DNA from: Actinomycetes bacterium
GTDB lineage: Bacteria > Actinomycetota > Acidimicrobiia > Acidimicrobiales > Palsa-688
Assembly: GCA_021838445.1 (NCBI GenBank)
Contig: JAKCDU010000037.1
Coordinates: forward strand, 1 to 36,024
Direction: 5' to 3'
DNA length: 36,024 nucleotides
The notes beneath the pieces were generated by a model, which ran no database searches, had not been told where the DNA came from, and saw only the letters and a list, made by a program, of their open reading frames with translations. Positions 6,033-22,572 of this stretch are shown here, one piece after another. The translations under genes were made by a program, and so were the position numbers. Numbering within the stretch: the first letter of the stretch is position 1; every line of letters begins with the position of its first letter.

Positions 6033-6419
6033 TCAGCCCTGGCTGCGGCTCCGTTCCGGCTCGATCTGCAGGATCACCCGCTCGGAGCTGATCGGGTTGG
6101 CGTAAGGGCCCCCGGTGTACTTGTGGCTCACCTTGTCGATGTGCTCACGGGCCTCGACCCCGGTGATGGTGCCCACGACCCGGCCGCGGATCTCGGCGTA
6201 GCGGTACGGGTTGGACGGATCGAAGATCATTACCGCGACCCGCGGGTCATGGCGGACGTTCTTGAACTTCTGGCGTTCCACCTCGGTGTTGATGAGGATG
6301 TGGCTGTCGTCGGCGTCGACCCACATCATCTGCGTGGAGAGCTGATCGCTCGGGGTGACCGTGGTGAACGCGGCGTAGGCTTTGCTGGCTAGGAGCTCAC
6401 GGGTCGTGTCGTCGAACAT
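6033..6419 (-). CDS. PPOX-class split-barrel protein, probably F420- or flavin-dependent reductase
   Basis: The 128-residue protein has the pyridoxamine-phosphate-oxidase-like split-barrel fold: an N-terminal AAFTTVTPSDQLSTQMMWV strand pair, then INTEVERQKFKNVRHDPRVAVMIFD and a RYAEIRGRVVG strand. This arrangement is typical of small actinobacterial F420-dependent FDOR proteins; the RQKFKNVRHDPRV segment is the cofactor phosphate-binding region. Substrate is unknown. A GTG at 6425 would add two residues, but a TAGCTT box ends exactly six bases before the ATG at 6419, matching the leaderless spacing seen elsewhere in this window, so I prefer 6419. It is the first gene to the right of the putative att site and is divergent from glsB. 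Confidence 0.85.
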   Translation of the reverse strand: MFDDTTRELLASKAYAAFTTVTPSDQLSTQMMWVDADDSHILINTEVERQKFKNVRHDPRVAVMIFDPSNPYRYAEIRGRVVGTITGVEAREHIDKVSHKYTGGPYANPISSERVILQIEPERSRSQG

Positions 6420-6425
6420 ATCCAC

Positions 6426-6431
6426 AAGCTA
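6426..6431 (-). promoter_or_regulatory. -10 box (TAGCTT) of the split-barrel gene
   Basis: On the reverse strand TAGCTT is followed by six bases and then the ATG at 6419. The spacing implies a leaderless transcript and decides the start. No clear -35 was recognised. Confidence 0.45.
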
Positions 6432-6469
6432 CCTGGAGACAAAGGTCCACGATCGTCCGCGACCGACGG

Positions 6470-6475
6470 TATTTT
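6470..6475 (+). promoter_or_regulatory. -10 box (TATTTT) of the GlsB-type gene
   Basis: TATTTT is followed by six bases (GGGACC) and the GTG at 6482. Transcription would begin at the start codon. It forms a divergent pair with the -10 box at 6426-6431. Confidence 0.5.
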
Positions 6476-6481
6476 GGGACC

Positions 6482-6811
6482 GTGATCCTCGCCATCTTCG
6501 CGGTGCTGGTGCTCCTCTTCGTGGTGCTACCGATCATCGGCATGGCGCTGTGGGCCCTTCTCACCACGATCGTCGTGGGGCTGATCGTCGGCGGCCTGGG
6601 TCGCCTGGTGCTACCGGGCAGCCAGCCCATCGGATTCCTGGCGACTGTGGGAGCCGGTCTGTGTGGGAGCATCCTCGGCGGCTTCTTCGGCCAGCACGTA
6701 CTGGCTATCGGCTGGCTCGGCACCCTTCTACTCGAGGTGGCCATCGCCGCCGCTCTGGTGGCTCTCCTGGCCGGACGCATGAGGCGCACCGGGGTCGGTA
6801 CCCGGCTGTGA
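6482..6811 (+). CDS. GlsB/YeaQ/YmgE-type small membrane protein
   Basis: This 109-residue, very hydrophobic protein has three predicted membrane helices (about 3-24, 26-46 and 55-100, the last part possibly as two segments), with the Gly-rich GLIVGGLGRLVLPG turn and GSILGGFFG typical of the transglycosylase-associated / GlsB family. Members are small stress-linked membrane proteins of unknown biochemical role; despite the family name no transglycosylase activity is shown. The start is GTG immediately after a -10 box. Its stop overlaps the GTG of the crotonase gene (GTGA at 6808-6811), so the two are almost certainly cotranscribed and translationally coupled, although no functional link between the families is known to me. 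Confidence 0.85.
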   Translation: MILAIFAVLVLLFVVLPIIGMALWALLTTIVVGLIVGGLGRLVLPGSQPIGFLATVGAGLCGSILGGFFGQHVLAIGWLGTLLLEVAIAAALVALLAGRMRRTGVGTRL

Positions 6812-7791: not shown

Positions 7792-9720
7792 ATGAACGAA
7801 TTCATTTCACTCACCGTCGCTGGCATCGCGACCTACGGGTGTGTATACGCCCTCACGGCCATGGGCCTGGTGGTCACCTACACCACGTCGGGCATATTCA
7901 ACTTCGCCCAGGGCGCCATCGGGATGATCGGCGCCTTCTTCTTCTACGAGCTGTCGAGGGTCTGGCACATCCCGTCGCTGCTGTCGTTGATCATCGCCGT
8001 CTTCATATTCGCCCCGTTGATCGGCGCCCTGCTGGAGCGGCTGGTGATGAGGCGTCTCGAGAACGCCGCGCTCGAAGCCAAGCTGACGGTCACCATCGCC
8101 CTGCTGCTGCTGGGGATCGCTCTGGCCACGGCCATCTGGAACCCGCAGACGGTCAGGAACCTGCCCAGCTTCTTCAACGGCCACCAGGTCTCGGTGGGCG
8201 GGGTGAACCTGACCTACCAGCAGGTGATCGTCGTCCTGGCTGCCATTCTGGCCGCCGTCCTCCTGCGCTTGTTCTTCATCTACACCCGGGCCGGCATCGC
8301 CACCCGGGCCGTCGTCGACGACCGGGACCTGGCCGCCCTCACGGGGGCCAGCCCAGCCCGCTTCGCTCAGCTCGGCTGGGCCATGGGGTGTGCCCTGGCT
8401 GCGCTCGCCGGAATCCTGATCGCCCCGCAGAACGGGGCCCTCGACATCACCAACCTGACCCTCCTGGTGGTCAACGGCTACGCCGCCGCCATGGTCGGCC
8501 GACTGCGCAGCCTGCCCCTCACCTTCGCCGGAGCCATCGTGCTCGGGGTTCTGTACTCCTACGCCCTGGGCTACCTACCGAGCACGTTGGTGTGGAACGA
8601 CTTCGCCAACATCACACCGATGATCTTCCTACTCCTGGTTATCCTGGTCCTGCCGCAGTCCCGAGCAGTGCTGTCGCGGCGGATCATGGTGAGGGCCCCC
8701 CGGGTGGTCGGCCTGAGGGAATCGCTCATCGCCGGCGGAGCCCTGATCCTCGCCGGGGTCCTGTTCTCGAGGCTGCTGTCGGGCAACAACCTGTCCTACG
8801 CCAACACCGGGGTGTCGCTCGGCATCATCATGCTGTCCCTGGTGCTCCTGACCGGCTACGGAGGGCAGGTCTCCCTTTGCCAGTTCAGCTTCGCCGGGCT
8901 CGGCGCCTACGCCATGTCCAAGGTCGGAGGGACCCACGGCTCGCTGCTCGGCATCCTGGCCGCCATGGGTCTGGCCGGGGCGGTCGGGGGTCTGGTGGCG
9001 CTCCCCTCGCTGCGGCTCAGGGGTCTTTATCTGGCCCTCGCCACCCTGGCTTTCGCTCAGGGTATGGACACCTACTTCTTCGGCAACCCGCAATTCTTCG
9101 GGGTGGCCGGGAGCATCTCGGTGGCCCGTCCCGATCTCTTCGGGTTCCAGCTGAGCAGTAGCCGGACCCTTCTGATAGCCCTTACCGTGGTGTTCGCCCT
9201 GATCGCCACGCTGATCCTCACCTTCCGGAGATCCCGATTCGGTCGGCGGCTCGTGGCCATCAACGACAGCCCCGCCGCGTGCCTGACCGTGGGTGTGGAC
9301 ATGACCCGATCAAAGTTGGCCGTGTTCATCATCTCGGCGGCCATTGCCGGGCTGGGGGGCGCCCTCTACGCCGGCGCCCAGACCCAGGTGGGGCCCAACG
9401 ACTTCCAGTTCATCCTGTCCCTGACGCTGCTGCTGATCGCCGTCGTCTGGGGTATCCGGACCACGGCCGGGATGCTCTTCGGAGGCATCGTGTTCTCTCT
9501 CGGGCCTCTCCTCGGCCAGCACCTGACCCACCCCCGGGACGCTTTCGACCTGTTGGTCGGCCTGGCCGCCATAGGCGTGTCGCAGAACCCGGAGGGCACC
9601 TTCGGCGGAAACACACTGCTCCAGAGGTGGCGTAACTCCAGGGAGGCCCAGCCGCCCCAAGCGGCCGGTGCGCTGGCCGCCGACTCGGGGGAGGAGAGGT
9701 TGAGCCATGCTGCAGGTTGA
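7792..9720 (+). CDS. Fused LivH-LivM permease of a branched-chain-amino-acid-type ABC importer
   Basis: The 642-residue membrane protein joins two permeases. Residues 1 to about 295 match LivH (GLVVTYTTSGIFNFAQGAIGM near the start, then the AALTGASPARFAQLGWAMG coupling segment). Residues about 310-610 match LivM (LLTGYGGQVSLCQFSFAGLGAYAM, LRLRGLYLALATLAFAQGM, and SPAACLTVGVDMTRSKL as the coupling segment). It would form the whole translocation pore for a HAAT-type importer; substrates of this family include branched-chain amino acids, amides and aromatic acids. The two halves are separate genes in E. coli, whereas fusions are common in actinobacteria. Start ATG at 7792 follows a GCAGGG-type ribosome site. 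The 3' end overlaps livG by 14 bases. Confidence 0.93.
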   Translation: MNEFISLTVAGIATYGCVYALTAMGLVVTYTTSGIFNFAQGAIGMIGAFFFYELSRVWHIPSLLSLIIAVFIFAPLIGALLERLVMRRLENAALEAKLTVTIALLLLGIALATAIWNPQTVRNLPSFFNGHQVSVGGVNLTYQQVIVVLAAILAAVLLRLFFIYTRAGIATRAVVDDRDLAALTGASPARFAQLGWAMGCALAALAGILIAPQNGALDITNLTLLVVNGYAAAMVGRLRSLPLTFAGAIVLGVLYSYALGYLPSTLVWNDFANITPMIFLLLVILVLPQSRAVLSRRIMVRAPRVVGLRESLIAGGALILAGVLFSRLLSGNNLSYANTGVSLGIIMLSLVLLTGYGGQVSLCQFSFAGLGAYAMSKVGGTHGSLLGILAAMGLAGAVGGLVALPSLRLRGLYLALATLAFAQGMDTYFFGNPQFFGVAGSISVARPDLFGFQLSSSRTLLIALTVVFALIATLILTFRRSRFGRRLVAINDSPAACLTVGVDMTRSKLAVFIISAAIAGLGGALYAGAQTQVGPNDFQFILSLTLLLIAVVWGIRTTAGMLFGGIVFSLGPLLGQHLTHPRDAFDLLVGLAAIGVSQNPEGTFGGNTLLQRWRNSREAQPPQAAGALAADSGEERLSHAAG

Positions 9721-10431
9721 CGGCGTCACGGTCGCCTTCGGGGGCATCAGAGCCCTCATGGATGTCAACATCGATGTGGAGGGCAACCGGATCACCGGGC
9801 TCATAGGGCCCAACGGCGCGGGCAAGACGACCTTGTTCAACGTCATCACCGGTCTCCAGCGACCGAGAAGCGGGCGGGTCCTGCTCGATGGCGTGGACGT
9901 CACCGGCAAGGGACCGCGGACCCGGGCCAAGCTGGGGATGGGCCGCACCTTCCAGCGCCTCGAGGTGTTCGGTTCCCTGACCGCCCTGGAGAACGTTCTC
10001 GTCGCCGTCGAGAACCGTGGCGGTATGGGGCGGGCCGCCCGTCAGCGGGCCACCGACCTGCTCGGTCGTGTCGACCTGGCCCGGATGGCCGGGGTGCAGG
10101 CCGATGTGCTGCCCACTGGTCAGGCCCGGCTGCTCGAGCTGGCCCGGGCTCTGGCCTGCGAGCCCAAGGTGCTGCTTCTCGACGAGCCCTTCTCCGGGCT
10201 CGACGCCAACGAGAGCGCCCGCCTGGGAGATCTGCTGGAGAGCCTGACGTCGGAAGGTCTGGCCATCCTGCTCGTCGAGCACGACATGGAGATGGTCATG
10301 CGGCTCTGCACTCGTATCCATGTCCTCAGCTTCGGGTCGATCATCGCCGCGGGAACACCGGGTGAGATCAAGGCCGATGCCGCCGTCCAGGAGGCCTACC
10401 TCGGCGCGCCGGTCGGCGCCGGGTCGGGATC

Positions 10432-10435
<4 letters not shown>
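9707..10435 (+). CDS. livG: LivG-type ABC transporter ATP-binding protein
   Basis: The 242-residue ATPase of the importer has Walker A GPNGAGKTT (34-42), the LivG-type insertion GMGRTFQRLEVFGSLTALENV with its Q-loop, a signature-like LPTGQARLLELARAL in place of the canonical LSGGQ, Walker B VLLLDEPFSGLD and the switch His in LLVEHDMEMVM. LivG-type proteins often carry degenerate signatures of this kind. It pairs with LivF to power the fused permease. A GAGGAGAGG ribosome site precedes the ATG inside the end of the permease gene. The stop overlaps the livF start as ATGA. Confidence 0.93.
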
Positions 10436-11202
<767 letters not shown>

Positions 11203-11226
11203 CAACTAAGAAAGGGAAACCTGATA

Positions 11227-12561
11227 GTGATACCGCACAAGAGGCGTGCCGCGCTGGCCTGTCTGGCCAGCGTCGCCGTAGTGGGCCTGGCGGCCTGTTC
11301 GAGCTCCAGTTCCAAGGGGGGCGGGGCCAGCCCCGCCACGACGGTCGCCAACGCCAACCCGTCGTCGTATCCCACGCTTCCCCCGAACCCCAAGGTCGCT
11401 GGCACGCTCAGCGGCCCCGGAGTGACGGCCACCACCATCACCATCGGCCAGATAGCCACCACCACCGGGCCGGTGCCCGGCTTGTTCCAGGGTGCCTTCG
11501 ACGGCCTCGACGCCTGGGTGGCGTGGGTCAACGCCAACGGCGGCATCGCCGGCCGCCAGGTCAAGATCGACCGGGTTGACGACGGGTTCAACTGCAGCAC
11601 CTACACCAACGCCATGACCAACTTCGCCACCTCGGCGTTCGCCGTCATCGGGAACATCTCGCTCGAGGACACCTGCGGTAAGAAGGTGCTGCAGGCCAAC
11701 CCGAACATGATCGACATCCAGGCGCTGACCCTCGACCCGACGCTCTACTCGATCCCCAACGTGTTCGCCGGGGAGTCGACGCCGCCGGGGGCCATCACCA
11801 CCGGCCTCGAGTACATGAAGAAGAAGTTCCCCGACGCCGTCACCCACGCCGCTCAGCTGGTCGGGGCGGCGGCGGCGGCCAACGGCAAGGAGGAGCAGCT
11901 CACCGCCGAGTCACTCGGCTACAAGTACCTCTACGTCCGCGACATCCCCGACCTGACCACCAACTTCACCACCTACATCCTGGCCATGAAGGCCCAAGGG
12001 GTGAAGTTCGTGGACATGACCGACCTGGCTGACACCAGCGATGCCAATTTCTTGCAGCAGGCCGCCCAGCAGAACTTCCACCCTGACGTGGTCTACGGGG
12101 CATCCGCCTACGACGCCAACCTGTTCAAGCTGCTCGGCAACGCCTCCCTGGCCAACAACGTCCTGTGGTCGGCTCTGTTCACCTCCATGTACCTCGGTCA
12201 GGACCGGGCCACGGTTCCGGCGGTCAACACCTACCTGACGTGGATGGTCAACGCCCACCCGAGCGCGGCCTCGACGCTGTACTCGGTGGACGCGTGGGCT
12301 GCCGGTCAGCTGCTCGTCCAAGCCATGCAGAACGCTGGCGCGAGCGTCACCCAGAGCACCGTGCTGTCAGCTCTGAAGAACATCAACAATTTCAGCGCCG
12401 GCGGCCTGGTCGCTCCGTCCGATCCCGGCCTGAAGCAGGGCACGCACTGCGTGGTCATGGCCAACGTGCAGAACAGCCAGTGGGTGCGGGTCGAGCCGGC
12501 CTCGGGCTTCGACTGCAGCGGCACCTACCACACCATTCCGTTGAGCGAAGTCAGCAAGTAG
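11227..12561 (+). CDS. Liv-type ABC transporter substrate-binding lipoprotein
   Basis: The 444-residue protein has a lipoprotein signal: positively charged KRR (5-7), a hydrophobic core and lipobox LAAC with Cys24 as the acylation site. It is followed by a Ser/Gly linker, so the mature protein is membrane-anchored outside the cell. The remainder is a periplasmic-binding-protein type I fold (TITIGQIATTTGPVPGLFQGAFDGLDAWVAWVN... split over two lobes), as in LivJ/LivK and aromatic- or amide-binding relatives. GTG at 11227 follows an AGAAAGGGA ribosome site 24 bases after livF. The binding pocket cannot be read well enough to name the ligand. The gene is followed by a strong hairpin terminator, so it ends the operon. 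Confidence 0.92.
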   Translation: MIPHKRRAALACLASVAVVGLAACSSSSSKGGGASPATTVANANPSSYPTLPPNPKVAGTLSGPGVTATTITIGQIATTTGPVPGLFQGAFDGLDAWVAWVNANGGIAGRQVKIDRVDDGFNCSTYTNAMTNFATSAFAVIGNISLEDTCGKKVLQANPNMIDIQALTLDPTLYSIPNVFAGESTPPGAITTGLEYMKKKFPDAVTHAAQLVGAAAAANGKEEQLTAESLGYKYLYVRDIPDLTTNFTTYILAMKAQGVKFVDMTDLADTSDANFLQQAAQQNFHPDVVYGASAYDANLFKLLGNASLANNVLWSALFTSMYLGQDRATVPAVNTYLTWMVNAHPSAASTLYSVDAWAAGQLLVQAMQNAGASVTQSTVLSALKNINNFSAGGLVAPSDPGLKQGTHCVVMANVQNSQWVRVEPASGFDCSGTYHTIPLSEVSK

Positions 12562-12590
12562 CGGCTCTCCTCGAGGAGGGGTACCGAAAG

Positions 12591-12621
12591 AACCGGCCGG
12601 CGCCATGGGCGCCGGCCGGTT
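12591..12621 (+). terminator. Strong hairpin terminator of the liv operon
   Basis: A perfect 14-bp stem (12591-12604 with 12608-12621, sequence AACCGGCCGGCGCC on the left arm) closes a three-base ATG loop. Only a weak T-rich tail (CACGTTTGCTT) follows. It lies 30 bases after the binding-protein stop, and the convergent dioxygenase gene ends 67 bases further on, so it can serve both strands. Confidence 0.8.
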
Positions 12622-12687
12622 CACGTTTGCTTCGCTGTGGTCGAAGGCAGGGGGCGCCGGGTCGGGCCGCCCGTTGCCTCTGACGGT

Positions 12688-13584
12688 CTACAGGGTGGGG
12701 AAGTTGATGAACTTGTGTCCCCAGAACTCGCCTTCGGTGATCTCGTAGACCGGCACTTCCTCGGTCACCCTCAAGCCGTCGTAGCCGACCTCTACGACGA
12801 AGCCGCCGGGTCCGATGACGTAGAAGGACACCATGTGGTCATTGGTGTGGCGGCCGAGAGTCTGCATGATGGGCAGCTCCATCTTCTCGGCCCGGTCCCA
12901 GGCCCGTCCCACGTCGTCGAGCGTGGCGGCTTCGAGCATGAAGTGGATGAGCCGTCCCGGTCCGGCCATGGGTAGCAGCCCCACGGTGTGGTGGCGGGGA
13001 TTGCAGCCGAGGAACCACAGGGTCTCGAACTGAGGGGTCCCGTCGGCGGCCGGGGCGGCGGGAAGGCGCATGGTGTTGCGCGGTCGGAAACCCAGGGTCT
13101 CGGTGTAGAACCGGTAGGCGGCTTGGCCGTCGGCGACGGTTAGGACCACGTGGCCCATGCCCTGGTCCCCGGTGACGAACGAGGAGACCTTGGGGGTGTT
13201 GACCGGGCGGTGAGCCAGGGCCACCCCCCAGAACAGCTCGACGGGGTTGCCGCCGGGATCGTCGAAGGTGACCGCCGCGGTCACCCGCCGGTCCCGGCAC
13301 GCCGACTGGTCCAAGACGGTGACCTTGGTCCCGGTCGCCTCGACGGCCGCCACCATCAGGTCCATTTCCTCGGGCCCGCTCACCTGGAACCCGATGGCTT
13401 CCACGGAGCTCTGGGCCGAGGGGATGACCACCAGTCGGTGGGGATGATCGTCGATCCGGAAATAGGAGTACTCCGAGGTGTCCCCTTTGACGGCTTCGAG
13501 GCCGAGGAAGTCCACGGCGAAGCGGTTCCAGGCGTCGACGTCCTCGGCGGCGATCCTTATGTAGCCGAGCGATTGAACCGGCAT
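12688..13584 (-). CDS. Type I extradiol ring-cleavage dioxygenase (BphC/HsaC-like)
   Basis: The 298-residue protein consists of two vicinal-oxygen-chelate modules (about 1-120 and 140-285). The Fe(II) ligands expected for catechol 2,3-dioxygenase-type enzymes are at His145 (GMGHVVLTV), His214 (GRLIHFMLEA) and Glu265 (FVVEVGYDG). Nearby are the second-sphere His/Tyr in GRHTNDHMVSFYV, and the terminal EFWGHKF motif seen in BphC. It should open a catechol-type ring next to the two hydroxyls with O2; substrates in relatives include dihydroxybiphenyl and steroid-derived catechols. A GGAGG ribosome site precedes the ATG. The gene converges with the liv operon and diverges from the alpha/beta hydrolase. 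The latter could be the C-C hydrolase acting on the ring-opened product, but that is inference. Confidence 0.88.
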   Translation of the reverse strand: MPVQSLGYIRIAAEDVDAWNRFAVDFLGLEAVKGDTSEYSYFRIDDHPHRLVVIPSAQSSVEAIGFQVSGPEEMDLMVAAVEATGTKVTVLDQSACRDRRVTAAVTFDDPGGNPVELFWGVALAHRPVNTPKVSSFVTGDQGMGHVVLTVADGQAAYRFYTETLGFRPRNTMRLPAAPAADGTPQFETLWFLGCNPRHHTVGLLPMAGPGRLIHFMLEAATLDDVGRAWDRAEKMELPIMQTLGRHTNDHMVSFYVIGPGGFVVEVGYDGLRVTEEVPVYEITEGEFWGHKFINFPTL

Positions 13585-13683
13585 GTACGCCTCCAGTCAG
13601 CGAGTCGGTGGCGCGCTCAGCGTATGGTCCGGCGGTTCGCCTCTCCGGGCCTACGTCCCGGCGAGCGGGACGGCGCCGGCCGG

Positions 13684-13689
13684 TACTGT
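13684..13689 (+). promoter_or_regulatory. -10 box (TACTGT) of the alpha/beta hydrolase gene
   Basis: TACTGT is followed by six bases (GAGCCG) and the ATG at 13696, implying a leaderless transcript and supporting this start over the much longer upstream open frame. Confidence 0.5.
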
Positions 13690-13695
13690 GAGCCG

Positions 13696-14604
13696 ATGCG
13701 AGCTGAGCAGGTACCCGAGTGGTTCACTCAGGCCCTGAACCATCAACCGGAGGTCGGCCAGGTCGAGGTGTCAGGTTGCCCGATCGCCTTCCGCAGGTGG
13801 GGCGACCCATCCCGCCCGGGGCTGCTGTTGGTGCACGGTGGGGGTGCCAACAGCCGGTGGTGGGACCACGTGGCTCCGTTCTTCGCCCGGGAGTGTCGCG
13901 TCACCGCCATCGACCTCTCCGGGCACGGGGACTCGGGGCGTCGGGCGTCCTACACCCATGACGTGTGGGCCGAGGAGATCGCCGTCCTGGCCGGCGCATC
14001 GGCAGGTTCGTCGCAGCCGCCGGTCGTGCTGGCCCACAGCCTGGGCGGCCTGGCCACCTTCCGGGCCGCGGCCCTCTACGGGGACCGCTTCGAGGGGGTG
14101 ATAGTCATCGATTCCCCGGTCCACGAGGAGCCGCCCGAGCAGGTGGCCAGCCGGCGCCGGGAGGCGTTCGGGCCGCTGCGCACCTACCTCACACCCGAAG
14201 AGGCGCTGTCCCACTTCCGCACCGTCCCCGACCAGCCGGTGCTGCTCCCCTACGTGGTCGACCACGTGGCGCGGAACTCCATCCGTCCGGCCAACGGAGG
14301 CTGGACTTGGAAGTTCGACCCGGCATTCTTCAGCGACCTGGCCCAGATCGGCGCCGAGACGCTCGGCGCGATCGGCTGCCGGGTGGCGGTGCTGCGCGCC
14401 GAGCACGGCCTGGTCACCCCTGACGTGGGACGGCACATGTACCAGCTGCTGGGGCGGACCGCCCCGGTCATCGAGATTCCCCTGGCCTATCACCACGTGA
14501 TGCTCGACCAGCCCCTTCTCCTGGTCACCGCGGTATTGGCCCTGCTGGCCGACTGGCGTCATTCTTATGCCATACAGGTGCCGGCAGCCTCGGAGGGGTG
14601 GTAG
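13696..14604 (+). CDS. Alpha/beta hydrolase
   Basis: The 302-residue protein has the alpha/beta-hydrolase fold: oxyanion-side LLLVHGGGANSRWWDHV (43-59), ITAIDLSGHGDS-like strand (69-80), the nucleophile elbow AHSLGG with Ser115, and a C-terminal catalytic His in YHHVMLDQP (His266/267). The acid is probably in the RAEHGLVTPD region. The reaction cannot be named from sequence; candidates are ester, lactone or C-C bond hydrolysis in a ring-cleavage pathway, since the gene is divergent from an extradiol dioxygenase with a 111-bp gap. The open frame extends to 13150, but that part is antisense to the dioxygenase and lacks homology. The following membrane-protein gene begins nine bases after its stop. 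Confidence 0.85.
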   Translation: MRAEQVPEWFTQALNHQPEVGQVEVSGCPIAFRRWGDPSRPGLLLVHGGGANSRWWDHVAPFFARECRVTAIDLSGHGDSGRRASYTHDVWAEEIAVLAGASAGSSQPPVVLAHSLGGLATFRAAALYGDRFEGVIVIDSPVHEEPPEQVASRRREAFGPLRTYLTPEEALSHFRTVPDQPVLLPYVVDHVARNSIRPANGGWTWKFDPAFFSDLAQIGAETLGAIGCRVAVLRAEHGLVTPDVGRHMYQLLGRTAPVIEIPLAYHHVMLDQPLLLVTAVLALLADWRHSYAIQVPAASEGW

Positions 14605-14613
14605 TCAGAGGGG

Positions 14614-15867
14614 ATGGAAACGGTCGAACAATCCTCGGTCGCCTCCCGCCGGCCCTCCGCCTTGGACCTGGTCGCAGCCGCCGGGCTGGTGGCGACCGTG
14701 GTGCTGCACGTCGTCGCCATGGCACCGACCTACTTCGTGGGGACCGGTTCGCTCATGTCCCAACCCGACCAGGCGACCATCTACTCGGTGGTGGCAGCGG
14801 CCTGGGCTCTGGCCCTGGTCATCGGCCTGACCGGGCCCAACCGCACGCAGGTGGCGGCGGCCCTGGCGGTCGGCGTGGCGGCGAGCGAGCTCGGGTTCCG
14901 TGTCGCCGACCTCGGTGACGCCCTGCGCTACGGCACCCAGACGGTCGGCTCGGGTCTGTGGCTGATGGAAGCGGCGTGGGTCGTCGGGGCGGTCGCCGCC
15001 GGGCTGGCTGTGGCCGCCGCCCGGCGCCGCCACACCCCCAGACCTCCGAAGCGCTCCGAGGTCGCGGGCGCCCCCGAGCCGTGGTCTGGCCCCCAACCGG
15101 GGCCCGGAGCCGCTGCCGACGGGTCTGACGCGGCCGGGACCGCCGCCTACGGGCCTGACGCAGCCAGGGCTGACACGCCCGACAGCATCGACTGGACGGC
15201 GCCGCTCACCGTTGGTGACGGCCGCCCCGAGCCCGGTTTCGTGCCCGTCCCTGTAGCGGTCGCCGTCGGCGGGGCCGGCGGGGCGACCGACGAGCCCGGC
15301 GTTTCCCCCTCCGCCGAGGACGATCACGAGAGGGCGGCCTGGACACTGCTGGTGATCATTCTCGCCGCCGTCACCGCCGGGGCGTTCCTACCGGCATGGG
15401 ACCACGCGGTGGCCACCAGCGCGGTCACGGGGAGATCGGTCGGTGTCGACCTGGGTAACGCCTTCAGCCATCAGCCCTGGCAGCAGGTCGTGGGAACGGT
15501 GCTGGCCGCGCTCAGCCTGCTGGTGGTTCCGGCGGTGGCTGTGCGCCTGCGCAACAAGGCGGTCGGTGCGGCCGCGGTGTGCGGGAGCCTGCTCGTTCTG
15601 GCCGCGCAGCTGGCTTCAGCGGTGGTCCAGGTCGACCAGCCGGTTTCCCCGTCCTATTTCGGCCTCACGGCCGGCCAGGTGCAGCAACTCGGACTGTCGC
15701 TGTCGCTGCGCCTGACCGACTGGTTCACCGTCGACGCCCTGGCGGCCTACGCCCTGCTCGCCGCGGTCATGGTGTGGTCCACGCTGAGGGTGGCTCACGA
15801 CAACTCGGCGGGGACCGTCCCGAAAGCCCCTTTCGAGCGCAACGAGGCGATGCCCTCGGCGTCGTAG
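14614..15867 (+). CDS. Polytopic membrane protein of unknown function
   Basis: I do not recognise this 417-residue protein. It shows two hydrophobic halves, with helices at about 18-38, 55-73, 78-95 (weak) and 112-136, then 241-261, 292-311, 317-339 and 372-390. They are separated by a Pro/Ala/Gly/Asp-rich linker of about 100 residues (140-240) that is probably disordered. There are no obvious catalytic motifs. A GAGGGG ribosome site precedes ATG 14614. It is likely cotranscribed with the alpha/beta hydrolase. Its last 73 bases overlap the 3' end of the convergent CoA-transferase gene, so both tails are coded on opposite strands of the same DNA. Confidence 0.7.
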   Translation: METVEQSSVASRRPSALDLVAAAGLVATVVLHVVAMAPTYFVGTGSLMSQPDQATIYSVVAAAWALALVIGLTGPNRTQVAAALAVGVAASELGFRVADLGDALRYGTQTVGSGLWLMEAAWVVGAVAAGLAVAAARRRHTPRPPKRSEVAGAPEPWSGPQPGPGAAADGSDAAGTAAYGPDAARADTPDSIDWTAPLTVGDGRPEPGFVPVPVAVAVGGAGGATDEPGVSPSAEDDHERAAWTLLVIILAAVTAGAFLPAWDHAVATSAVTGRSVGVDLGNAFSHQPWQQVVGTVLAALSLLVVPAVAVRLRNKAVGAAAVCGSLLVLAAQLASAVVQVDQPVSPSYFGLTAGQVQQLGLSLSLRLTDWFTVDALAAYALLAAVMVWSTLRVAHDNSAGTVPKAPFERNEAMPSAS

Positions 15868-16997
15868 CCGGCCTCCATCAGCACCTCCTCGGTGTGCTCG
15901 CCGATGAGGGGGGCGGGTCGGCGCACCGACTGAGGGGCCCGTTCGAAGCGGACCGCCGGGGGGATGGAATGGAATGCGCCGGCGGCGGGGTGGACCTCGA
16001 CGGGGAGGGCCTCGACCAGCGCATCGAGGGAAGCCACGGGGGCGGCCGGGACGTCCTGTTCCCGGAAGAATTCCAGCCACTCGCTGGTGGTCCTCTCGGC
16101 CATCATCTGCCGCACCTCGCGGTAGAGGAAGGCGGCGTTGGTGATACGCAGCCGGGCCGTCGAGTACCGGACGTCACCGAGCAGATCGGTGCGCCCAGCC
16201 GCGGCGAATATCGAGTCGTAGTGTTCCTTGGTGTAGGGCAGCGCCATGATCCAGCCGTCGCGGGTGGGCCACGGTCCTCTCTCCTCGTTCAGCACCCGGC
16301 TGTAGCCGGCTGGCCCGAGGGATGGGACAGGTATGGCCGCGGCACCGTGCTCGACCAGGGTGAAGGCGGTCATGGTCTCCACCATGGGCACTTCGATGCG
16401 CTCGCCGTCGCCGGTCATGGCCCGCCGGTAGAGGGCGGCGCTGACGGCGTAGACAATGGTCAGACCGCACACCTTGTCGGCCATGATGGTGGCCGACACC
16501 ATGGGTCGTCCCGTCAGCCTCGAGGTGGCGTCGGCGATGCCGGTCTCGGTCTGCACCACGTCGTCGTAGGCCGGCTCGTCGGCGCGCGGCCCGTCGCTCG
16601 GGTACCCGTGGGCCTGGCAGTAGACGATGTCGGGGCGGCGGGCGGCCACTTCCTCGTAGGCCAGGCCGGCCCGGGCCAGGGTGCCGGGACGGAGGTTGGT
16701 CACCATGACGTCACAGGTGGCCACCACGTCGAGCAGGGCGGCGAGCCCTGCGGGGTGCTTGAAGTCGATGGAGATGTTGCGCTTGTTGCGGAGCAGGTTG
16801 AGCGCGACCCCCGAGAGCTGGGGGATCGGCCCCGGCCCCATGGACCGGTTGGCTTCCCCGCGGGGCGGTTCGACGGTTATGACGTCGGCACCGAGATCGC
16901 CGAGCACTTGGGTGGCGTACGGACCCATGACGACCGAGGTCAGGTCGAGGACGCGGATACCGGCGAGAGGGCCGCCGGCGATCGGGTGGATGGTCAC
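15795..16997 (-). CDS. Class III (CaiB/BaiF-type) CoA-transferase
   Basis: The 400-residue protein starts with GIRVLDLTSVVMGPYATQVLGDLGADVITVE, the hallmark N-terminus of the CaiB/BaiF family (formyl-CoA transferase, alpha-methylacyl-CoA racemase). The catalytic Asp is most likely Asp145 in EPAYDDVVQTETG, and NLRPGTLARAGL (101-112) matches the CoA-binding region. It would move CoA between acyl groups, or racemise a 2-methylacyl-CoA. Length is normal. The GTG start lies six bases after a TAGCCT box and only 24 bases from the divergent epoxide-hydrolase start. Its 3' end overlaps the convergent membrane-protein gene. Substrate is unknown; the context suggests activation of an acid imported by the neighbouring transporters. 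Confidence 0.9.
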   Translation of the reverse strand: MTIHPIAGGPLAGIRVLDLTSVVMGPYATQVLGDLGADVITVEPPRGEANRSMGPGPIPQLSGVALNLLRNKRNISIDFKHPAGLAALLDVVATCDVMVTNLRPGTLARAGLAYEEVAARRPDIVYCQAHGYPSDGPRADEPAYDDVVQTETGIADATSRLTGRPMVSATIMADKVCGLTIVYAVSAALYRRAMTGDGERIEVPMVETMTAFTLVEHGAAAIPVPSLGPAGYSRVLNEERGPWPTRDGWIMALPYTKEHYDSIFAAAGRTDLLGDVRYSTARLRITNAAFLYREVRQMMAERTTSEWLEFFREQDVPAAPVASLDALVEALPVEVHPAAGAFHSIPPAVRFERAPQSVRRPAPLIGEHTEEVLMEAGYDAEGIASLRSKGAFGTVPAELS

Positions 16998-17021
16998 CCG
17001 GAGAGGCTACGTTGAGCCACG
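16998..17021. promoter_or_regulatory. 24-bp divergent gap with two overlapping -10 boxes
   Basis: On the reverse strand TAGCCT (17009 to 17004) lies six bases before the CoA-transferase GTG. On the forward strand TACGTT (17008-17013) lies eight bases before the epoxide-hydrolase ATG. The boxes share the self-complementary TA step at 17008-17009, so both promoters must compete for the same melted region. There is no room for untranslated leaders. Confidence 0.5.
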
Positions 17022-18158
17022 ATGACCACAGCAATCGAGCCGTTTCAAGTCGCCGTAACCTCGTCGGCCATCGGCGACCTCAGGGAGCGGCTGAACCGCG
17101 CCCGCTGGCCCGAGCCGGCGACTGTCACCGACTGGTCCCAGGGGGTGCCCCTCGGGTACCTGCAGGACCTCTGCCGCTACTGGCGGGACGACTACGACTG
17201 GACCGCCCGCCAGGACCGGCTCAACTCGTTCCCCCAGTACCGCGCCGAGATCGACGGGCTGGGCGTCCATTTCATCCACGTCCCCTCACCCCATCCGGGG
17301 GCCCTGCCGCTGATCCTCACCCATGGCTGGCCCGGCTCGGTGGTGGAGTTCCTCGAGGTCATACCGGCGCTGGTGGATCCCACGCTCGAAGGCGGGGACC
17401 CGGCCGACGCCTTCCACGTGGTCGTACCGTCACTGCCCGGCTACGGCTTCACCGACAGGCCGGCGGAGACGGGATGGGGGATCGAGCGCACGGCCCGGGC
17501 CTGGGCCGAGCTGATGAGCCGTCTCGGCTACCGGCGCTACGGGGCCCAGGGAGGCGACTGGGGATCGATGGTCACCACCAGTATCGGCCAGCAGGACCCC
17601 GGCCACGTCGCCGGTATCCACCTGAACATGGTGCTCGGCTTCCCCGGGCCCGATGACGGCGAGATGACCGAGATGGAGCAGTCGGCCATGGCCCGTGTCC
17701 AGGACTACAACGAGTGGGATTCCGGCTACATGAAGCAGCAGGGCACCCGGCCGCAGACCCTCGGGTACGGCCTGGTCGATTCCCCGGTGGGCCAGTGCGC
17801 CTGGATACTGGAGAAGTTCTGGTCGTGGAGCGACACCGACGGTGATCCCGTAGGGGCCCTGGGAGCTGACCGCATCCTGGACAATGTGATGCTCTACTGG
17901 CTGACCGCCACCGGCGCATCGTCGGCCCGCATGTACTGGGAGTCCATCCGCAACCCTCCCTTCGGTCCGGTGTCGGTGCCCATGGGGGCATCGGTGTTCC
18001 CCAAGGAGATATTCCGCTGCTCCCGGCGCTGGGCCGAGCGGCAGTTCGCCGACATCCGCTACTGGGGCGAACCCGAGGTCGGCGGCCATTTCGCCGCTTT
18101 CGAGCAGCCGGCCATCTTCGTCGAGGAGCTACGCCGGTTCTTCGCCACGGTGCGCTGA
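17022..18158 (+). CDS. Epoxide hydrolase (EHN-domain alpha/beta hydrolase)
   Basis: The 378-residue protein has the N-terminal EHN lid-associated domain (about 5-110, with RWPEPATVTDWSQGVPLGYL and WRDDYDWTARQDRLNSFPQY). This is followed by the alpha/beta-hydrolase core: oxyanion HGWPGS (101-106), nucleophile Asp179 in GAQGGDWGS and the catalytic His356 in GGHFAAFEQP. This matches microsomal-type bacterial epoxide hydrolases that convert epoxides to vicinal diols through an ester intermediate. Length is normal. It diverges from the CoA-transferase and ends at a hairpin shared with the MFS gene. A role in detoxifying or using ring- or alkene-epoxide intermediates is inferred from neighbouring catabolic genes. 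Confidence 0.92.
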   Translation: MTTAIEPFQVAVTSSAIGDLRERLNRARWPEPATVTDWSQGVPLGYLQDLCRYWRDDYDWTARQDRLNSFPQYRAEIDGLGVHFIHVPSPHPGALPLILTHGWPGSVVEFLEVIPALVDPTLEGGDPADAFHVVVPSLPGYGFTDRPAETGWGIERTARAWAELMSRLGYRRYGAQGGDWGSMVTTSIGQQDPGHVAGIHLNMVLGFPGPDDGEMTEMEQSAMARVQDYNEWDSGYMKQQGTRPQTLGYGLVDSPVGQCAWILEKFWSWSDTDGDPVGALGADRILDNVMLYWLTATGASSARMYWESIRNPPFGPVSVPMGASVFPKEIFRCSRRWAERQFADIRYWGEPEVGGHFAAFEQPAIFVEELRRFFATVR

Positions 18159-20114: not shown

Positions 20115-20969
20115 TCAGGAAGTGTGTTCCCACTGTCGGCGATCCACCAGGATCTCCTTGAGGGTGGCCGGCCGGTCGGTCATGATGCCGTCCACGCCGA
20201 GGTCCAGGAGTCCCTCCATGGTCGCCCGGTCGTCGATGGTCCACACGTGCACGGCGATCCCCAGGCGGTGGGCGGTATCGATCAGGCGCCTGTCCACGAG
20301 TGGTATGCGGCCCTGGCGGATGGGTATCTGGGCCGCGCCGAACCCGGTGAGCCGGTCACCGAGGGACCGGGCCCCGGCGGGGCCCAGAACGCTGGCCAGG
20401 CGCAGGGCCGAGGTGGCCAGCGGGCCCATCCCGGTGCACAACCGGGGACCGAGGGCCCGACGGATCCGGGCCAGCCGGCGGTCGTTGAAGGACGTGATGC
20501 AGACCCGATCGAGTGCTGCCGAGCGGTGGATGGTCTCGATCAGGGGCCCGACCACGCGGTCGTGCTTGGCGTCGATGTTCCAACGCACCTCGGGCCAGGC
20601 CTCGAGCACCTCATCGAGGCGGGGTACGGGTTGGTCGGAGCCGCTCAAGCGGACCGTGGCCAGCTGTGACCACGACAGGTCCCGTACCGCGCCGCCCCGC
20701 TCGCTGGTGCGGCTCAGATCGGGGTCGTGGATGGTGACGACGGTCCCGTCGGAGGTGGCGTGAACGTCGGTCTCCACGTACCGGTACCCGAGGTCCACGG
20801 CGTGGCGGAAGGACTCCCAGGTGTTCTCCGGGGCCTCGAGGGCGCCGCCTCGATGGGCGAAGGCGAGGGCATGGGGGTGGTCGAGGAAGGCGAAGCGCGG
20901 CGAATCCACCGCCGGGAGGCTACCGCCACTTTCGGCGGCGGCGCCCCGCTCAGCCGGGGTCCGATTCAT
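20115..20969 (-). CDS. Glycerophosphodiester phosphodiesterase
   Basis: The 284-residue TIM-barrel enzyme would hydrolyse glycerophosphodiesters to sn-glycerol 3-phosphate and an alcohol. Catalytic and metal residues are visible: His39-Arg40 in AFAHRGG, Glu48-Asn49 in APENTWESF, Glu66 and Asp68 in YVETDVH, and His81-Asp82 in TIHDPDLSRT. The end shows VHVWTIDDRATM and GVDGIMTDRP, as usual in the family. No signal peptide is seen, so it is cytoplasmic. It begins inside the last 20 bases of gpsA; together they act on the glycerol-3-phosphate pool for phospholipid metabolism. Confidence 0.93.
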   Translation of the reverse strand: MNRTPAERGAAAESGGSLPAVDSPRFAFLDHPHALAFAHRGGALEAPENTWESFRHAVDLGYRYVETDVHATSDGTVVTIHDPDLSRTSERGGAVRDLSWSQLATVRLSGSDQPVPRLDEVLEAWPEVRWNIDAKHDRVVGPLIETIHRSAALDRVCITSFNDRRLARIRRALGPRLCTGMGPLATSALRLASVLGPAGARSLGDRLTGFGAAQIPIRQGRIPLVDRRLIDTAHRLGIAVHVWTIDDRATMEGLLDLGVDGIMTDRPATLKEILVDRRQWEHTS

Positions 20970-21939
20970 GGCCGGGGTGGCGCAAGCCGCGGTAGGCGTC
21001 GAGGGGTTTCTGTCGGCCCATCACCACCTCGTGGATCTCGTGGCAGATCGGGAGGTCGACGCCGTACTGGGCGGCCAGGCCGAGGGCCAGGCGAGCGGTG
21101 TTGACGCCCTCGGCGACCATGTGCATCTCGGACAGGATGCCCTCGAGGGGACGCCCCCTGCCGAGCATCTCGCCCACCGTCCGGTTGCGGCTGTAGGGGC
21201 TCATGCACGTCGCCATCAGGTCCCCCATGCCGGCCAGGCCGGCCAGGGTCTGGGGTTCGGCCCCCATGGCCACCCCGAGTCGGGTCAGTTCGGCCAGGCC
21301 CCGGGTGATGACCGCGGCCCGGGTGTTGTCCCCCACGCCCAGGCCCTCGCCGATCCCGGCGGCGATGGCTATCACGTTCTTGAGGGCGCCGCCTATCTCA
21401 CAGCCGATCACGTCGTGGTTGCGGTAAACCCGGAACAAACGGTGCTGGAGGACGCCCTGCAGGGCGGTGGCCACCCCCTGGTCCTCGGTGGCGATGACGC
21501 TGGCTGCGGCCTGCCCGGCCATGATCTCCCGGGCCAGGTTGGGCCCCGACAGCGCCGCCCTCGGGTGGCCGGGCAGCAGTTCCTGGACCACCTGGGTCAT
21601 GCGCTTGAAGGTTCCGGCCTCGATGCCCTTGGTGAGGCTGACGACCGGGACCCAGGGGCGCAGCCAGCTACGAGTCTCCTGCAGCGTGGCGCGAAAGCCG
21701 TCAGAGGGGACGGCCACGACCAGCACGTCGGCGTCGCGCACCGCCTCCTCCATGTCGGCTGTGGCCCTGAGCCGCCGGGGGAGGGTGGCCCCGGGCAGGT
21801 ATCTCTGGTTGGTACGCGAAGAGTTGACCTCCTCGGCCACCTCGGGGTTGCGGGCCCAGAGGATGGTGGGGTTCAGAGCAGTGGTGAGGCTGGCCACCGT
21901 CGTGCCCCACGAACCGGCACCGAGCACCGTCACGTTCAT
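20950..21939 (-). CDS. gpsA: NAD(P)H-dependent glycerol-3-phosphate dehydrogenase
   Basis: The 329-residue enzyme reduces dihydroxyacetone phosphate to sn-glycerol 3-phosphate, the backbone for phospholipids. The N-terminal Rossmann motif is GAGSWGT (7-13). The catalytic Lys187 is in GGALKNVIAIAAG, and the substrate-binding GDNTRAAVITRGLAE and GLAGMGDLMATCMSPYSRN follow. ATG 21939 has a GGGGGAGG ribosome site; the frame is open to 22683, but the extra residues are antisense to the sigma-factor gene. It is divergent from the SigR-like gene with a 51-bp gap and overlaps the phosphodiesterase gene by 20 bases. Confidence 0.96.
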   Translation of the reverse strand: MNVTVLGAGSWGTTVASLTTALNPTILWARNPEVAEEVNSSRTNQRYLPGATLPRRLRATADMEEAVRDADVLVVAVPSDGFRATLQETRSWLRPWVPVVSLTKGIEAGTFKRMTQVVQELLPGHPRAALSGPNLAREIMAGQAAASVIATEDQGVATALQGVLQHRLFRVYRNHDVIGCEIGGALKNVIAIAAGIGEGLGVGDNTRAAVITRGLAELTRLGVAMGAEPQTLAGLAGMGDLMATCMSPYSRNRTVGEMLGRGRPLEGILSEMHMVAEGVNTARLALGLAAQYGVDLPICHEIHEVVMGRQKPLDAYRGLRHPGHESDPG

Positions 21940-21978
21940 TTTGCCTCCCCCTGGCTCGGGACGGTCACAGGTGGAGGG

Positions 21979-21984
21979 TAGGGT
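21979..21984 (+). promoter_or_regulatory. -10 box (TAGGGT) of the SigR-like gene
   Basis: TAGGGT is followed by six bases (AGGCAC) and ATG 21991. The upstream GTGGAGGG could instead act as a ribosome site for a transcript started further upstream, so both modes are possible. Confidence 0.4.
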
Positions 21985-21990
21985 AGGCAC

Positions 21991-22572
<582 letters not shown>

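Follow-up and report, generated by a model that had tools for sequence, protein, structure and literature searches.

Bacterial bidirectional promoters, as described by Warman, Grainger, Wade and colleagues, start transcription divergently from -10 elements that have bases in common (PMC12825309, PMC10268837), and are defined by divergent transcription starts lying 7-25 bp apart (PMC10268837). In E. coli the commonest distance between divergent starts is 18 bp, an arrangement with reciprocal -7/-11 bases (PMC12825309, PMC10268837), and distances of 10 and 23 bp are also common (PMC12825309). Binding of two polymerases to such a promoter at once is reported to be sterically impossible, and the basal activity of five E. 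coli bidirectional promoters that were tested was too low for competition; competition can appear once transcription is raised, and strong activation of one side represses the divergent RNA (PMC12825309). For M. tuberculosis, leaderless promoters are described as TANNNT boxes with no recognisable -35 element and with the transcription start at ATG or GTG; closely juxtaposed divergent promoters are called common, and prpD and its divergent regulator Rv1129c are both leaderless (PMC3898074).

The window considered here, i.e. the whole analysed stretch of 36,024 nucleotides, is one contig, C21, of the 117 that make up a 3.99-Mb genome (hereafter G000). A CoA-transferase family III gene (COT) and an epoxide hydrolase gene (EH) diverge in it, and the locus is a predicted new member of the promoter kind outlined above, near the published 23-bp class. 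According to our own calculation, a TA common to both directions at -12/-11 gives, with 6-nt spacers, 23 bp from start to start, so that the published 23-bp class would correspond to the common-TA geometry, while the spacers of 6 and 8 nt found at COT/EH give a predicted distance of 25 bp. Like the E. coli bidirectional promoters, COT/EH would start divergent transcription from -10 elements with common bases, the key bases of the two directions overlapping on opposite strands; unlike in E. coli, both RNAs are predicted to be leaderless, and promoter geometry would therefore also determine how far apart the start codons lie. The likeness to the leaderless promoters of M. tuberculosis lies in TANNNT without a recognisable -35 element and in the ATG and GTG starts, whereas two leaderless genes with one common -10 TA are not described in the excerpted parts of that account (PMC3898074). 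A search of the open-access literature on leaderless bidirectional or divergent promoters likewise yielded no description of leaderless gene pairs with a shared box.

Gene starts and -10 boxes in the COT/EH gap

The sequence-only reading had placed the two divergent genes 24 bp apart and had noted that a reverse TAGCCT and a forward TACGTT have one TA in common; the gap and both boxes lie where it put them (Table 1), and both gene starts are forced. The COT frame is closed by an in-frame TAG four codons upstream of the start, which is the TAG of the reverse box itself, and its next start codon comes not before codon 24, inside the PF02515 domain (beginning at residue 11). The EH frame is closed by an in-frame TGA three codons upstream, and its next start codon comes not before codon 42, inside PF06441 (beginning at residue 5). 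Owing to these in-frame stops and domain limits, the start codons of both genes are unambiguous. A TTG at 17012, with GGAGAGG at the ideal Shine-Dalgarno (SD) distance, was ruled out as the EH start, being in a different frame.

Table 1. Features of the COT/EH locus and of one divergent pair of genome G016. Positions are those of the window unless a contig is named.
Feature	Position	Strand	Details
COT, CoA-transferase family III gene	15795..16997	-	GTG start at 16997; PF02515, E 2e-91
Divergent COT/EH gap, 24 bp, entire intergenic promoter region	16998..17021	.	read from sequence
GGAGAGG, Shine-Dalgarno-like	17000..17006	+	15 nt before EH ATG
Reverse -10 box TAGCCT	17004..17009	-	6 nt before COT GTG; 80th percentile among 110 leaderless-type boxes
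TA step common to both boxes, predicted -12/-11 of both promoters	17008..17009	.	kept in 3/3 genus genomes
Forward -10 box TACGTT	17008..17013	+	8 nt before EH ATG; 21st percentile among 110 leaderless-type boxes
Predicted COT transcription start, first base of GTG	16997	-	from TANNNT-N6-start peak
Predicted EH transcription start, at or within ~2 nt of the A of ATG	17022	+	from TANNNT-N8-start peak
EH, epoxide hydrolase gene	17022..18158	+	ATG start at 17022; PF06441 EHN, E 5e-39, plus PF00561
G016 divergent pair, TAGGTT and TACTAT with one common TA, gap 26	contig C10, L284-L289 joined, 109376-109403

TAGCCT is the commonest hexamer at the leaderless-type starts of the genome (14 of 110), and TACGTT is an ordinary to weak one (3 of 110). 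Both genes have start codons of the kind expected for leaderless genes, with no SD at a working distance; GGAGAGG was judged too far away to serve EH, because the distribution of SD-like tetramers in this genome has its peak 5-10 nt before starts. A scan of positions 16500-17500 for consensus sigma-70 promoters (-35 and -10) and terminators gave no matches, a result that is uninformative for TANNNT promoters lacking a -35 element.

We consider it likely that the gap is one bidirectional promoter from which both mRNAs are leaderless, with the two genes probably independent at basal strength. A single ten-base element, ANNNTANNNT (AGGCTACGTT), would supply both strands with a TANNNT -10 box built on the same TA, and RNA polymerase carrying the main sigma factor would melt this TA in either orientation. 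The COT mRNA would be leaderless from G16997 of the GTG, and the EH mRNA would begin at or next to A17022 of the ATG, about 25 bp away; translation of both would start at the mRNA 5' end without an SD. At any instant one polymerase would exclude the other, as the sequence-only reading had proposed and as is stated for the promoter class (PMC12825309), from which the point is carried over by analogy. Such exclusion at the level of binding does not entail exclusive or balanced expression: the basal activity of the five E. coli promoters tested was insufficient for competition, and COT and EH are probably expressed independently at ordinary basal strength. The consequence for the two enzymes would accordingly be modest, namely compact and probably independent basal expression.

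Genes for branched-chain amino-acid-type ABC transporter components, an extradiol dioxygenase (BphC-like) and an alpha/beta hydrolase, at 7792-14604 of the window, adjoin COT and EH; this neighbourhood is perhaps an aromatic-compound catabolic region.

Positional signal and chance expectation

The positional behaviour of TANNNT was assessed in 1,013,991 bases of G000 (about a quarter of the genome) with our own simple codon-usage gene finder, whose starts are approximate; it returned 850 genes, with 839 starts used. TANNNT occurs at spacers 6, 7, 8 and 9 in 49, 20, 30 and 12 cases, respectively (111 matches in total); by comparison, spacers 11-19, nine in number, have 15 between them, and each position from 20 to 50 has 3.6 on average. 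The spacers of 6 and 8 nt seen at COT/EH are the two largest peaks of this sample. The 110 genes with a start-adjacent TANNNT begin with ATG (68) or GTG (42) and never with TTG, and an SD-like tetramer lies upstream of 8% of them, compared with 35% of the other 729. By analogy with the starts mapped in M. tuberculosis, this combination of box position, start codon and SD depletion is a signature of leaderless transcription. Since TANNNT is concentrated 6-9 nt before starts, both COT/EH boxes stand at positions predicted for leaderless-mRNA promoters. The earlier expectation that transcripts in both directions begin at or near the start codons is in line with these peaks, with the few SDs, the absence of TTG and a gap kept within the genus (see below), and we retain it as a prediction.

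A single TANNNT match says little, because only three of its bases are fixed. In a chance model of random 24-nt gaps at genome composition, with TANNNT allowed 6-9 nt before the start, a forward box arose in 1.4% of gaps and a pair of boxes, one per side, in 0.16%; for shuffles of the COT/EH gap the latter figure was 0.15%. Once a forward box is given, the probability of a reverse box is 0.0016/0.0139, or about 12%, as one extra base is needed. The common-TA geometry implies a gap of 10+s1+s2, where s1 and s2 are the two spacers (10+6+8=24 for COT/EH), and a common TA is thus near-automatic for a 24-bp gap with two boxes, because the second box needs only that one extra base.

The COT/EH pair in related genomes

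A search for EH homologues in 99 relatives gave a match at E<=1e-60 in 40 of them; in genome contigs, the closest named matches among the best 80 kept belong to MAGs labelled Acidobacteriota (96% identity), Actinomycetes (84-73%) and Acidimicrobiaceae (70-69%). COT is divergent from EH in G000, G001, G002, G003 and G008, and also in G013, where the two genes are 1,317 nt apart. The gaps of G000 and G001 are identical. In G002, whose EH is 84% identical, the aligned ATG (gap 42) was replaced by an in-frame GTG six codons upstream; this start is our own choice, preferred because the GTG (in GTGACC) lies 6 nt after TAGCCT, as in the other genomes of the genus, and it results in a 24-bp gap. Given this chosen start, the gap, boxes and spacers are kept in all three same-genus genomes and changed in other genera, which is the outcome of the comparison among relatives that the sequence-only reading had proposed. 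The three genomes amount to little independent evidence, as G000 and G001 have one and the same gap sequence, from which that of G002 departs at few positions.

Outside the genus the arrangement varies. In G003 the alignment gives a gap of 141, with TAGCCG as the reverse reading. In G008 the ATG of COT has a reverse box TACCGT 8 nt in front of it; this box and a forward TACGGT overlap in the palindrome TACGGTA, an arrangement corresponding to the 18-bp geometry of the literature. The EH of both genomes is preceded by a leader containing the SD GGAGG some 7-8 nt from the start codon. In G009, G011 (at a contig edge) and G015, COT has no EH next to it; conversely, in G014, G016, G023 and G029 the kilobases fetched around EH contain no COT.

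These comparisons bear on three other explanations. According to the first, only one box is functional: the conserved GGCTACGNT would drive EH, TAGCCT would be accidental, and COT would be transcribed from inside EH or hardly at all. The chance of about 12% for a reverse box once the forward one is present is compatible with this, as are the TAGCCG of G003 and the GCTAC[GC][GT]T-like elements found upstream of EH in other genera regardless of COT (e.g. in G016 and G013). The reverse box, however, stands at the modal spacer of 6, is the commonest leaderless hexamer and outscores the forward box, the sole COT start has no TANNNT other than TAGCCT 5-10 nt before it, and G008 carries a different reverse box in front of COT; we therefore regard a single functional box as unlikely.

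The second explanation, in which the EH transcript starts upstream and GGAGAGG acts as a distant SD, is in our view very improbable: although EH does have a leader in G003 and G008, and GAGAGG is kept in G002, a distance of 15 nt exceeds the SD peak of this genome, and no TANNNT was seen at the required position in the upstream sequence that was read.

The third would make the overlap a selected regulatory switch, rendering the two enzymes mutually exclusive or fixing their ratio. Steric exclusion in this promoter class and repression of the divergent RNA under strong one-sided activation in E. coli (both PMC12825309) would suit a switch, but the five E. coli promoters tested were too weak at basal activity to compete (PMC12825309), and an informal inspection of the 24 bp revealed no operator. 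The conserved pairing expected of a switch is also not found: beyond the genus the genes are respaced in G003 and G008 and far apart in G013, and COT occurs without EH in three genomes. As the pair is respaced or split outside the genus, it appears to be recent or labile, and as the gap, the leaders and the pairing itself change there, there is no evident conserved coupling between the two enzymes. We hold a selected switch to be quite unlikely. Of the earlier proposal, then, the bidirectional promoter stands as a prediction, whereas mutually exclusive or balanced expression is not upheld, given the low basal activity of the E. coli promoters tested and a pairing that is not conserved beyond close relatives.

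Common-box architecture at other divergent pairs

The G000 sample comprises 148 divergent pairs. Boxes next to the start lie on both sides in 19 of them, and in four of the 19 the boxes are adjacent or overlapping, with an exact common TA in two, namely COT|EH and JAB|smpB. At the pair C2 103488|103515 the boxes overlap in a different register. Control spacers of 12-15, 16-19 and 20-23 gave 0, 0 and 1 adjacent or overlapping pairs, respectively, the single one being a chance common TA. In G016 there is one common-TA pair among 49 divergent pairs (Table 1), and no overlapping boxes were found among the 64 and 57 divergent pairs sampled in G033 and G037. The pair GH77|DUF72 was rejected as a common-box pair, as TANNNT lies 5-10 nt before GH77 in 0 of 12 loci and before DUF72 in 8; having a forward box and never a reverse one, it indicates that short gaps alone do not yield the two-box pattern.

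A JAB-domain peptidase gene and smpB diverge in G000 across a 26-bp gap with the palindromic ACGGTACCGT (L127:6290-7233, contig C4), with a common TA and spacers of 7 and 9. The pair was traced through 32 genomes, 30 of which matched; 30 loci were fetched and 29 scored, one being dropped at a contig edge. Of the 18 family-f1 genomes, 15, representing 12 genera, combine a common TA with a start-adjacent box in each direction, as does 1 of 11 others. The three f1 exceptions (G010, G018 and G004) keep A...TA...T, with a forward start that is more distant or was not found. Fourteen of the 16 common-TA loci have a reverse spacer of 7, and in G033, G036 and G037 the start-adjacent boxes are separate. 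The three variable reverse bases vary freely while A, TA and T are constant, which is the best evidence that the element works both ways. As a prediction from sequence comparison, JAB|smpB is a stronger case for the promoter class than COT/EH itself.

An AMP-binding ligase gene and a DUF520 gene diverge in G000 across a 22-bp gap with an overlapping palindromic TAGCGTA (L136:9625-9648, contig C12). In 12 family loci traced, 11 of them scorable, start-adjacent boxes occur on both sides in 10 and overlap in five. The palindromic TAGCGTA overlap is present in all three genus genomes, a common TA in two (G011, gap 27; G012, gap 22), and separate boxes in five family genomes, where the gap is constant at 38. 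This pair, too, supports the promoter class more strongly than COT/EH does.

These series suggest a broader reading, tentative and in our estimate somewhat less than an even chance, in which selection in this actinobacterial family has favoured the doubly leaderless bidirectional promoter as a gene architecture. The 10-bp ANNNTANNNT would then constitute both promoters, with fixed spacers of 6-9 nt that determine where each mRNA has its 5' end and where its start codon lies. At JAB|smpB the element would have come about by the merging of two leaderless promoters that are unmerged to this day in G033, G036 and G037, and would then have been kept across 12 genera. AMP-ligase|DUF520 would display separate, common-TA and palindromic stages in different genera, and EH|COT would be a younger instance. 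For leaderless mRNAs the geometry of the promoter can be read from DNA alone, because the start codons mark the transcription starts. Bidirectional promoters, known mainly through transcript mapping, could in this way be predicted for uncultured genomes, and comparison of gaps would show how they evolve; JAB|smpB and AMP-ligase|DUF520 provide many-genome series in which separate and common -10 elements can be compared for the same two genes.

Finally, three other divergent arrangements were observed. On contig C23 of G000 (L154:3457-3475), an inositol-monophosphatase-family gene diverges from another gene across a 17-bp gap that contains a near-perfect inverted repeat, CGGGTAGGGTCTACCCG. In the window, a glycerol-3-phosphate dehydrogenase gene diverges from an ECF-type sigma factor gene across 51 bp (20950-22572), the latter with TAGGGT 6 nt before its ATG, and an F420-dependent PPOX-type oxidoreductase gene diverges from a small ORF (6033-6811), with start-adjacent but separate TANNNT boxes on both sides.
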